NCBI GenBank assembly: GCA_000514715.1
Contig: AZWL01000006.1
Location: 210,229-274,228, forward strand
DNA: 64,000 nucleotides
Source: Streptomyces sp. CNH099
Lineage (GTDB): Bacteria; Actinomycetota; Actinomycetes; Streptomycetales; Streptomycetaceae
Direction of reading: 5' to 3'
Position 1 is the stretch's first letter. Each line of letters opens with the position of its first letter. Below are positions 23,451 through 27,886 of the stretch, in pieces. Under the pieces are notes generated by a model that saw only the letters and a list, made by a program, of their open reading frames with translations, ran no database searches and had not been told where the DNA came from. The position numbers and the translations under genes are program-made.

Positions 23451-23591
23451 GCCGGCGAGCCTAGGGCCGCCGGCCGCGGCGGAAGGCCGCTGCCGCGCCC
23501 GACGTCACACTCCGGTAAGACCCCGGCGGGCGGGCGGGTAGAACGCGGTCCTATCCAGCAATCCAGAAGATATTCTTACTCCTTCGAGCGA

Positions 23592-23620
23592 TTGCTGCCG
23601 CTATGCCCGAAGCCTAGCTT
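23592..23620 (+). promoter_or_regulatory. Leaderless promoter of the encapsulin gene
   Basis: TTGCTG (23592-23597) and TAGCTT (23615-23620) are separated by exactly 17 nt, and the ATG follows the -10 hexamer after 7 nt. Transcription would start at or next to the A of the ATG, so the message has no ribosome-binding leader. No alternative Shine-Dalgarno sequence is present. Confidence 0.75.
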
Positions 23621-23627
23621 CGGTGCC

Positions 23628-25037
23628 ATGACGACCTCGCCAGAAGACACGTCCGCGTCCGTCGAACCCCCCGACCGTCTCAGCCTCGACACCGCCGCCG
23701 CGCGGAACCTCACGACGACCACCAAGACGCCCCCGCAGATGCAGGGGATCTCGTCCCGCTGGCTGCTCAAGGTGCTGCCGTGGACGGAGGTCAAGGGCGG
23801 TGCGTTCCGGGTGAACCGGCGCCTCACCCACACGCTCGGCGACGGCCGTGTCGAGTTCACGTCCGTCGGCGACCAGGTGCGCGTCATCCCGCAGGAGCTG
23901 CGGGAGCTGCCGCCGCTGCGCGCGTTCGGGGACGAGGAGGTGCTGACCGCGCTGGCCGGGCGGTTCGAGCAGCGGGAGGTCGCGCCGGGGGACGCGGTGG
24001 TGTCCGCGGGCGCGGCGGCGGACACGGTCGTGCTGGTCGCGCACGGGCGGCTGGAGCGGGTCGGCGCCGGGAAGTACGGGGACGAGACGGTTCTCGGCGT
24101 CCTCGCCGACGGCGACCACGTCGGCGAGGACGTGCTGCTCGCCGACGACGGCACGTGGCCGTTCACCGTACGGGCCACGACCCGCGGGACGGTGCTGGTG
24201 CTCGCGCGCTCCGCGCTCGACGAGCTGCTGGAGCAGGCGGCGGGGCTGCGGGAGCACCTGGCGGCGCTCCGCGCGATTCCGCGGCAGCGGCAGAACAGCA
24301 AGGGCGAGGCGGAGATCGAGCTGGCCTCCGGCCACCGCGGCGAGCAGGACCTCCCCGGCACCTTCGTGGACTACGAGCTGACGCCCCGGGAGTACGAGCT
24401 GGAGGTCGCCCAGACCGTCCTGCGCGTGCACAGCCGCGTCGCCGACCTCTACAACGAGCCGATGAACCAGGTCGAGCAGCAGCTGCGGCTGACCGTCGAG
24501 GCGCTGCGCGAGCGCCAGGAGCACGAGCTGGTCAACAACCACTCGTTCGGCCTGCTGCACAACGCCGACCTCAAGCAGCGCATCCACACCCGCTCGGGCC
24601 CGCCGACACCCGACGACCTCGACGAGCTGATCTCCCGCCGCCGCCAGACGCACGTGCTGCTGGCCCACCCGCGCGCGATCGCGGCCATCGGCCGGGAGTG
24701 GAACAAGCGCGGCATCTACCCGCCGCGCACGGAGTACCTGGGCAGCGAGGTCAACAACTGGCGCGGCATCCCGCTGCTGCCGTGCAACAAGATCCCGATC
24801 ACCCCGGAGGCGACCAGCTCGGTCATCGCGATGCGGCTCGGCGAGGCGGACCAGGGCGTGGTCGGGCTGCACCAGACGGGGCTGCCGGACGAGATCCGGC
24901 CGGGCATGAACGTCCGGTTCATGGGGATCAGCGACAAGGCGATCATCTCGTACCTGGTGAGCACCTACTTCTCCGCCGCCGTGCTCGTCCCCGACGCGCT
25001 CGGCATCCTGGAGGACGTGCAGATCGGCGCCGGCTGA
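23628..25037 (+). CDS. Family 2B encapsulin nanocompartment shell protein
   Basis: A 469-residue HK97-fold shell protein. The N-arm region [20 protein letters not shown] and the following [24 protein letters not shown] are characteristic of family 2 encapsulins. An inserted cyclic-nucleotide-binding-like domain at about 95-215 ([31 protein letters not shown]) marks subtype 2B. The rest is the P- and A-domain core. Family 2B shells usually package polyprenyl transferases or terpene cyclases encoded next door. Here no such cargo gene is adjacent; the downstream neighbour is a convergent phosphoketolase. Shells assemble in the cytoplasm as 60-mers. Start fixed by the leaderless promoter. Confidence 0.93.
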
Positions 25038-25064
25038 CGGGCGGGGGCCGCGGGCCGCGGACGC

Positions 25065-25089
25065 GCCGGCCGGGTTCCGCCCGGCCGGC
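25065..25089. terminator. Bidirectional terminator between encapsulin and phosphoketolase genes
   Basis: A perfect 10-bp stem (GCCGGCCGGG at 25065-25074, complement at 25080-25089) with a TTCCG loop fills most of the 54-nt gap between two converging stops. Confidence 0.8.
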
Positions 25090-25091
25090 CG

Positions 25092-27476
25092 TCACTCCCG
25101 CGGGCCCGGCCACGTCCAGTCCGCGACCTCCGGCAGGTCGGTCCCGTGCGCGCGGACCCAGGCGTGGTGCCTGCCCCGTACGTCCGCCATCCGCTGCCGC
25201 AGCGCCGCCGCCCGCACGGCCAGCCCGGGGACGCGGTCGATGACGTCCATGACCAGTCGGTAGCGGTCGAGGTCGTTGCGTACGACCATGTCGAACGGCG
25301 TGGTCGTGGTGCCCATCTCCTTGTATCCGCGCACGTGCAGCTGGTCGTGGCCGGCGTGCCGGTAGGCGAGCCGGTGGATCAGCCACGGATAGCCGTGGTA
25401 GGCGAAGACGACCGGCTTCTCGTGGGTGAAGACGGAGTGGAACTCCCGCGCGGTCATGCCGTGCGGATGGTCCTCGTGCGGCATCAGCCGGGCGATGTCG
25501 ACGACGTTGACGACCCGTACCGCCAGCTCCGGCAGGTGCTGGCGCAGCAGCGCCGCCGCGGCCAGCACCTCCTGCGTGGGCACGTCCCCGGCGCAGGCCA
25601 GCACCGCGTCGGGCGCCTCGCCCGGGCGCTCGGTGCCGGCCCACTCCCAGATGCCGACGCCGCGCAGGCAGTGCGCGCGGGCCTCCTCCGGCGTGAGCCA
25701 GTCGAACGACGGCTGCTTGCCGGCGACGACGACGTTGACGACGTCGCGGGTGCGCAGCACGTGGTCGGCCACGCACAGCAGGGTGTTGGTGTCCGGCGGC
25801 AGGTAGACCCGGACGGAGCCGGGGCTCTTGTTGAGGATGTGGTCGACGAAGCCGGGGTCCTGGTGGCTGAAGCCGTTGTGGTCCTGCCGCCAGACGTGCG
25901 AGGTCAGCAGGTAGTTGAGCCCCGCGACCGGGGCCCGCCAGGGCTCCTCGCCCGCGGTCCGGATCCACTTGACGTGCTGTGCGGCCATGCTCGCGACGAT
26001 GTGCGCGAACGCCTCGTACGACGAGAACAGCCCGTGCCGGCCGGTGAGGACGTACCCCTCCAGCCAGCCCTGGCACAGGTGCTCGGAGAGCACCTCCATG
26101 ACCCGGCCGTGCGGCCCGTGGTGCTCGTCCGTCTCCTCCGTCTCCGCCTGCCACGCCCGGTCCGTGACCTCGAACAGCTCCTGCAGCCGGTTCGACGCGG
26201 TCTCGTCCGGGCCGAAGACGCGGAAGTCGCGGCGCTCCGCGGTGTCGGCCATCACCTGCCGCAGCATGCCGCCGAGCACCCGGGTCGGCTCGTGGCGCCG
26301 CACGCCGGGCCGGTCGACGGCGACGGCGTACCGGTCGGGCCCCGGCAGCGGCAGGCTGCGCAGCAGCCGGCCGCCGTTGGCGTGCGGGTTGGCGCCGAGG
26401 CGGCGGTCGCCGTGCGGCACGCAGGCGAGCACCTGCGGGCGCGGCCGGCCGTCGGCGTCGAAGAGCGTCCGCGGCTCGTACGAGCGCAGCCACCGCTCCA
26501 GCTCCGCCAGGTGCTCGGGGTTCTCCCGCACCCCGGGCAGCGGCACCTGGTGGGAGCGCCACGTGCCCTCGACCGGCGTGCCGTCGACGTACTCCGGCCC
26601 GGTCCAGCCCTTGGGGGTGCGCAGCACGATCGCCGGCCAGCGGGGGCGGGCCGCCGTCCGGCCGCGCCCGCCCTTCGCGCGCGCGGCCTGCTGGATCTCG
26701 GCGATCCGGTCCAGCGCGGCGTCCGTGGCCGCGGCCATGTCCCGGTGCGCGCGGGCGGTGTCCCCGGGAGCCGAGCCCGCGCTGACGTGCAGCGGCTCGT
26801 GGCCGTAGCCGCGCAGCAGCTCGTCCAGCTCGCTCTCCGGGATGCGGGAGAGCACGGTGGGGCCGGCGATCTTGTAGCCGTTGAGGTGCAGGACGGGCAG
26901 CACGGCGCCGTCGTGCACCGGGTCGAGGAACTTGTTCGCGTGCCACGACCCGGCCAGCGGCCCGGTCTCCGCCTCGCCGTCGCCGATGACGCAGACCGCG
27001 ACGAGCCCGGGGTTGTCGAAGGCCGCGCCGTAGGCGTGCGCGAGCGAGTAGCCCAGCTCGCCGCCCTCGTGGAACGACCCGGGCACCACCGGCGCGACGT
27101 GGCTCGGCGTCCCGCCGGGGAAGGAGAACTGCCGGAACAGCCGCGCCATGCCGGCGGCGTCGCGCGACACGTCGGGGTGCACCTCCCCGTACGAGCCGTC
27201 GAGCCAGGCGCCGGCGTAGACGGCGGGGCCGCCGTGGCCGGGGCCCCAGACGCAGACGGCGTCGAGGTCGCGGGCGCCGATGACGCGGTTGAGGTGGGTG
27301 TAGACGAGGTTGAGGCCGGGGCAGGTGCCCCAGTGGCCGAGCAGCCGCGGCTTGATGTCGCCGGGCGTCAGCGGCTCGGTGAGCAGCGGGTTGCGGGTGA
27401 GGTAGATCTGGCCCGCGGCCAGGTAGTTGAGGGCGCGCCAGTGGGCGTCGAGGTCGGCCTGCTCCTGCTTCTTCAT
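25092..27476 (-). CDS. xfp: Xylulose-5-phosphate/fructose-6-phosphate phosphoketolase
   Basis: A 794-residue thiamine-diphosphate enzyme of normal family length. It splits xylulose 5-phosphate (or fructose 6-phosphate) with phosphate to acetyl phosphate and a triose or tetrose phosphate. Visible motifs are [26 protein letters not shown], the ThDP site [19 protein letters not shown] and [15 protein letters not shown]. The start at MKKQEQ is chosen because homology begins there; the frame stays open 49 codons further up, but that stretch is Arg/Gly-rich noise. The gene is monocistronic and convergent with the encapsulin gene. No acetate kinase gene is nearby. Confidence 0.93.
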
Positions 27477-27691: not shown

Positions 27692-27886
27692 ATGGCCGTG
27701 TCGGTGTCGGTCGTGCTGCTGCTCCTCGTGCTGGCGGTGGTGTTCCTGCGCAGCGGCTCGCTCAAAACCTCGCACGCGGTGGTCTGCGTGCTGCTCGGCT
27801 TCTACCTGTCCGGCACCACCGTCGCCCCGACGATCCAGTCCGGTCTGGAGGCCACGGCGAACGTGGTGAGCAGCATCCGGCCGTAA
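27692..27886 (+). CDS. Small two-helix membrane protein
   Basis: A 64-residue protein with one hydrophobic helix at about 2-20 ([15 protein letters not shown]), the linker [10 protein letters not shown] and a second helix, ending in [11 protein letters not shown]. Similar small proteins are common in Streptomyces next to regulatory genes, but no function is known. The start at 27692 gives a clean N-terminus directly before the helix; an ATG at 27659 is possible. It is divergent from the phosphoketolase gene and just upstream of the DUF397/XRE triad. Confidence 0.7.

Follow-up and report, generated by a model that had tools for sequence, protein, structure and literature searches.

The DNA studied here raises the question of what a family 2B encapsulin shell encloses when no cargo gene stands beside it. 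In Streptomyces sp. CNH099 the shell gene lies next to a phosphoketolase gene, and inspection by eye of the neighbouring open reading frames (ORFs) bore out an earlier sequence-only reading, according to which neither a prenyl transferase nor a terpene cyclase adjoins the pair. The window, meaning the whole stretch of DNA that was analysed, covers 64 000 nucleotides (nt) of contig C35 (G000:C35:210229-274228) in a genome of 8.14 Mb that consists of 99 contigs and is 99.98% complete. We conclude that it probably encodes a single-component 2B encapsulin with cargo encoded in trans, most likely a 2-methylisoborneol (2-MIB)-synthase-type cyclase (C35:69599-70804) and possibly also a geosmin-synthase-type cyclase (C2:643306-645537). 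The features of the locus are collected in Table 1.

The shell and the tagged terpene cyclases

The shell protein (469 aa) has an SrpI-like domain (PF19307, 454.8 bits, residues 218-467) and a cNMP_binding domain (PF00027) inserted at residues 116-203. This combination of an HK97/SrpI-type shell domain with an insertion of the cNMP-binding fold in the E-loop is that of family 2B, and the score with NF041163, the NCBIfam model for 2B shells, was 758.8 bits (cut-off 400), in agreement with the sequence-only reading. The term 'cNMP-binding-like' used there holds for the fold only. In the cassette columns of 154 shells, the arginine of the cassette motif PRAAT is missing from the window shell, which has PFTV at the site. 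In 2B shells this domain is stated to bind no cyclic nucleotides (PMC12407261). Among solved chains the best match was 9bix, not the Streptomyces griseus shell 9bhu. From the order of the data statement and the RRRK diagnostic motif (RRRQ at this site in the window shell), 9bix is the Enc2 of Streptomyces lydicus, which assembles alone into an icosahedral shell (PMC12407261).

A profile search of the whole genome found only one 2B shell over the cut-off, the four other NF041163 matches covering the cNMP domain only (48 bits or less). Having a 2B shell is in itself nothing unusual in the genus, which for the relatives was taken to be Streptomyces: 196 of the 199 sampled genomes had one and three gave no match. 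By its shell, the nearest named relative of the window is Streptomyces aculeolatus DSM 41644 (92%).

The sequence-only reading had suggested a search of the genome for family 2 cargo with disordered N-terminal tails, and had listed an unlinked cargo among its alternatives. When terpene cyclases were searched for, four genes accounted for the five matches obtained. One of these, the 2-MIB-synthase-type cyclase P0004, is encoded on the same contig as the shell, 163 kb away rather than beside it, and scores 513 bits (cut-off 400) with NF041167, the model named 'family 2 encapsulin nanocompartment cargo protein terpene cyclase'. P0005, the product of the gene that follows, reaches 513.6 bits with NF041943 (cut-off 400), the model for geranyl diphosphate 2-C-methyltransferases. 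The first 84 residues of P0004 contain GPTGLGTAAAR and are 58% proline, alanine or glycine, a composition from which alone the tail was judged to be disordered. GPTGLGT and GPTGLGTSAAR have been proposed as the targeting motifs of 2-MIBS-like and GS-like (geosmin-synthase-like) cyclases, which are 2B cargo (PMC8346489). The geosmin-synthase-type gene encodes a two-domain cyclase that has the motif GPPAGLGTAAAR in its C-terminal tail and ends in GGPPAGLGTAAARPAAWAGS. Both cyclases favour the unlinked-cargo alternative, and the 2-MIB-type enzyme is encoded under the upstream element of the shell gene (below). The terpene cyclases on contigs C1 and C33 were rejected as cargo; the frames read have no GLGT, and an LGTSA in the C1 frame lies far upstream of the likely start.

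An upstream element shared by the shell and the cyclase

The 13-mer TTCGAGCGATTGC has exactly two exact copies in 8.14 Mb, one upstream of the shell gene and one upstream of the 2-MIB-type cyclase gene. The sequence before the shell gene reads TACTCCTTCGAGCGATTGC, 17 nt, CCTAGCTTCG, and that before the cyclase gene TACTCTTTCGAGCGATTGC, 17 nt, CCTAGCGTCG. From the 13-mer to the ATG there are 32 and 31 nt, respectively, and the spacing of CCTAGC is the same in both. The best ungapped match of 45 nt between the two upstream sequences has 32 identical positions, which none of 4000 random 80-mers reached (largest value 29); these were drawn from regions of the genome, leaving out 80-mers that contain the 13-mer. 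A sigma-70 scan found no consensus promoter, so that the -10-like TAGCTT in Table 1 is best regarded as putative.

Both copies of the 13-mer are kept in S. aculeolatus (G210) and in a further relative, G047, where the cyclase, the methyltransferase and the exact element are found at the syntenic place. The distance between cyclase and shell is about 149 kb in the former and about 189 kb in the latter, and no shell was found in the 200-kb stretch examined there in either.

The element belongs to shell genes. It was sought in the best 80 of 277 relatives of the shell locus, counts that therefore stand for close relatives, and 79 of the 80 had enough sequence upstream of the first shell gene. Allowing up to two mismatches, the 13-mer of the window was found upstream of 42 of the 79 first shells (one of them, L006, a close relative) and of none of 70 second shells. 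The background at this threshold was two matches in the whole window and 1.1 on average in its shuffles. With the IUPAC form WTYGRGYGAYTGY and up to one mismatch, 63 of the 79 first shells had a match, none of the 70 second shells did, and either of two control readings gave none in 79. As the IUPAC form, like the regular expressions for the tag, was composed after the sequences had been seen, the window's own 13-mer is the less biased test. A conserved CAYTC-N-TTYGAGYGATTGC stands upstream of first shells (L006-L085), some 20 nt ahead of TAGNTT. It is seen with different types of cargo, some Kutzneria loci have it too, and some of these elements contain a CACTC-N4-GAGTG dyad.

The gene order at the locus has a counterpart in Streptomyces smaragdinus. 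The shells of the window, S. aculeolatus and G047 are sister to the S. smaragdinus shell with a support of 99 in both trees (a FastTree of 154 shells and an IQ-TREE of 37 rows). In S. smaragdinus (L022) the shell gene is followed, with a 1-base overlap, by a gene for a two-domain terpene cyclase and then by one for a 64-aa membrane-type peptide; a DUF397-like gene, a kinase, an XRE-type regulator and an aldehyde dehydrogenase are among those further on (by eye). The phosphoketolase of the window occupies the exact site of this cyclase. Streptomyces himastatinicus, Streptomyces violens and Streptomyces ochraceiscleroticus (L024, L011 and L014) likewise have a single shell near that of the window in the trees and, like S. 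smaragdinus, a geosmin-synthase-like cyclase in cis, where the window has the phosphoketolase. A move of an in-cis cyclase of the S. smaragdinus type to the geosmin-type locus on C2 was considered and is unsupported, the gene on C2 grouping with unlinked ones (L269 is a flagged long branch).

We infer encapsulation, docking and co-expression as follows. GPTGLGTAAAR in the N-terminal tail of the 2-MIB-type cyclase, or GPPAGLGTAAAR in the C-terminal tail of the geosmin-type cyclase, would dock into the shell interior. The shell and the 2-MIB-type cyclase would be expressed together through their common upstream element and not through an operon. The phosphoketolase would be a neighbour of long standing, having either taken over or retained the site at which the sister lineage has a terpene cyclase.

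Several observations weigh against this assignment. With up to one mismatch the element has three matches in the genome, and so has a reversed control, and the weight is therefore placed on position, exactness and the wider match of 32/45. The closest solved relative of the shell is the Enc2 of a putative xylulose kinase (XK) system, and the in-cis cyclase of S. smaragdinus has a degenerate tag (GFGVSAA). The geosmin-type cyclase stays just under the cut-off of NF041168 (1162.8 against 1200), and the element is found before none of 60 geosmin-type genes (up to one mismatch, all 60 upstream sequences taken from the match start), so that it is the tag that makes this enzyme a candidate. In the plasmid collection none of four pairs of a shell and a 2-MIB-type cyclase has the element upstream of the shell, and it was rejected as a general mark of 2-MIB systems. 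Only L304 among eight shell loci of that collection has it, and it is missing at L302 (NZ_CP109039.1), another unlinked case, in which the annotation gives a 2-MIB-type cyclase as cargo of a family 2 encapsulin and the 11-kb stretch contains no shell. Because the 2-MIB-type shells of the plasmid collection are without the element, the cyclase in this lineage bears the element of the other shell class, the one on which it would now depend, if on any.

Alternatively, the shell could be an orphan, a structural or regulatory particle without enzyme cargo, like EshA of Streptomyces. No cargo is encoded in cis, and some two-shell 2B operons in the published survey have no obvious cargo (PMC12407261). 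However, there are tagged cyclases in the same genome, one of them with the rare upstream element of the shell, and no other 2B shell is available to them there, which makes an empty particle improbable.

The 2B terpene-cyclase operons of the 2-MIBS-like and GS-like types (Andreas & Giessen 2021, PMC8346489) resemble the system proposed here in shell family, GPTGLGT(SAAR) motif, cyclase types and methyltransferase partner. In that work cargo was looked for up to 20 ORFs away from the shell, whereas here 163 kb separate shell and cyclase, and a common upstream element links them. No report of unlinked 2B cargo or of this element was found in the literature covered, which included few subscription papers or preprints. 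A 2024 study reportedly found 2-MIB synthase inside a 2B shell of S. griseus; it is not used as evidence here.

Table 1. Features of the shell locus (positions in the window)
Feature	Position	Strand	Basis or remark
Upstream element TTCGAGCGATTGC; its second copy (C35:70836-70848, - strand) precedes the unlinked 2-MIB-synthase-type gene	23583..23595	+	Two exact copies in the genome
Putative -10-like TAGCTT; with the ATG 7 nt further on, the transcript may be leaderless	23615..23620	+	By eye
Family 2B encapsulin shell gene, single-component, Enc2-type	23628..25037	+	NF041163, PF19307 and PF00027; nearest solved chain 9bix
Convergent intergenic gap of 54 nt with a G+C-rich hairpin	25038..25091	.	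Folding of 25030-25099
Phosphoketolase gene, recurrent neighbour at the site of the S. smaragdinus terpene cyclase; not supported as cargo	25092..27476	-	Domain matches, locus counts, trees
Gene for a 64-aa membrane-type peptide, synteny marker beside the S. smaragdinus terpene cyclase (L022:4021-4215)	27692..27886	+	Locus comparison

The phosphoketolase and other candidate cargo

The neighbouring phosphoketolase (794 aa) has the domains XFP_N, XFP and XFP_C and scores 1333.1 bits with NF003619 (cut-off 962). Its start at 27476 agrees with those of its two nearest homologues (MKKQE[LQ]ADLDAHWRA) and it thus has no N-terminal tail, as the sequence-only reading had held. That reading also saw a terminator shared by the convergent genes. 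The convergence and the gap were found as described, but the hairpin (-46.7 kcal/mol) is no better than those of shuffled sequences (z -0.84) and a terminator scan gave no site within the gap, so that the terminator role is unproven.

A functional tie between shell and phosphoketolase was considered, with the enzyme either as cargo or as a partner that feeds or drains an encapsulated sugar-phosphate step. Their adjacency is recurrent. A convergent pair was found at 16 of the 80 shell loci, in at least two distinct gene contexts; 15 of the 16 are two-shell loci, in which the other flanking genes are unlike those of the window. All 19 shell-linked phosphoketolases examined fall in one set of 23 rows of the phosphoketolase tree, apart from 89 generic rows with no linked member, and an SH-aLRT support of 100 separates this set from 18 generic rows. 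No shell was found in the 19-20 kb around its four unlinked members. From this confinement and the locus counts, the association is old and lineage-bound. On a common origin of the two groups of phosphoketolase-linked shells the trees disagree: the groups formed one 29-row set in the FastTree (support 87) and stood apart in the 37-row IQ-TREE (98).

Set against this, a shell within 6 kb was found at three of 96 phosphoketolase loci (the window's own, G047 and G089), counted on 96 of the 111 listed matches after removal of short pieces and of distant matches, whose identity is at most about 50%. A phosphoketolase was present in 90 of 101 sampled genomes of the genus, and the genome studied here also encodes a generic one. 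Most of the linked shell loci are kin in which the other flanking genes are conserved as well, and the shells at L035 and L052-L055 have no phosphoketolase. The tag regular expression matches none of the 19 linked enzymes. Bare GLGT occurs in two of 112 phosphoketolases, inside the enzyme in both cases (L032, linked; L117, unlinked), and the termini of the linked enzymes resemble those of 16 unlinked ones compared, with no terminal extension. The upstream element was found before none of the 19 linked and none of the 93 unlinked genes (up to one mismatch); with its gene on the opposite strand, the phosphoketolase has neither an operon nor a promoter element in common with the shell. In G089 (L211, G089:C1:5417000-5436000) the order is shell 1, a terpene cyclase with two copies of the tag, shell 2 and, outside these, a convergent phosphoketolase, so that the presence of the one enzyme need not exclude that of the other. 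The enzyme was therefore rejected as cargo, having no tag, tail or element, and the pairing stands as a recurrent adjacency for which a functional tie is unlikely. The literature covered gave no paper pairing an encapsulin with a phosphoketolase.

A link through xylulose kinase, which the sequence-only reading had put forward, did not hold. Two shells are described as invariable in XK systems (PMC12407261, PMC8346489), and 25 of the 26 XK-labelled loci in the sample had two, L031 showing one. The genome has one shell, there is no xylB among the neighbouring ORFs, and the best XylB is encoded on contig C2 among xylose genes, with no shell there. The putative XK system of S. lydicus (PMC12407261; 9bix, 9bje) is like the window in that its Enc2 is of the same type as the window shell and assembles alone, and a similar element is found in XK loci, but it is a two-component system.

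An unlinked polyprenyl transferase was also considered as cargo. There are five PF00348 matches in the genome, and the three scored by NCBIfam were all below the cargo cut-off. The candidate, an enzyme on contig C1, reaches 408.2 bits with NF041169 (2B prenyl-transferase cargo, cut-off 450). It has no tag and lies in a hopanoid-like cluster (by eye), and the three genome sites of the upstream element are elsewhere; we consider this very unlikely. Two more of the matches, IspH-like ORFs of 698 and 684 aa (L206 and L208; G000:C90:122061-124157 and G000:C78:600-2654), appear by eye to be fused to a polyprenyl synthase, and one of them adjoins an IspG-like gene.

Geosmin-type cyclases across the genus

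A relative of the geosmin-type cyclase was found in all 56 genomes searched. The tag count and the tree cover the 58 complete proteins from 60 loci, without L242 and L246. A loose form of the tag was present in the inter-domain linker or the C-terminal tail of 49 of the 50 unlinked and seven of the eight shell-linked proteins, and the catalytic domains, with 39 456 residues in all, gave a single match. In its strict form, GLGT[SA]A, the tag was found in 37 of 50 and six of eight, respectively. In a subset of the loci (L216-L275), for example in G003, G013, G027, G040 and G080, the C-terminal copy is missing. One short motif at three places in two architectures fits a putative docking motif, but it may instead belong to the linker and have nothing to do with shells.

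The high frequency of the tag in unlinked synthases suggests that trans-encoded cargo is common. The chances seem to us even that this holds for Streptomyces, in that the geosmin synthases, mostly unlinked, would bear the motif and be packaged by the 2B shells that nearly all genomes have, a single shell would serve several odour-terpene enzymes, and the 2B shell genes would make up a regulon, with a common element in which cargo genes that have moved elsewhere can take part.

To date 2B cargo has been assigned by gene neighbourhood, and shells without a linked enzyme have consequently been counted as having no obvious cargo. In this single-shell genome, a shell has been matched to a tagged cyclase by a rare common upstream element. 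The unlinked-cargo alternative is thereby a specific and testable claim, and the phosphoketolase reading is weak. If the former is true, tag and promoter could serve to pair many 'orphan' shells with their cargo, and a protein shell may as a rule be the place where geosmin, which gives soil its smell, is made.

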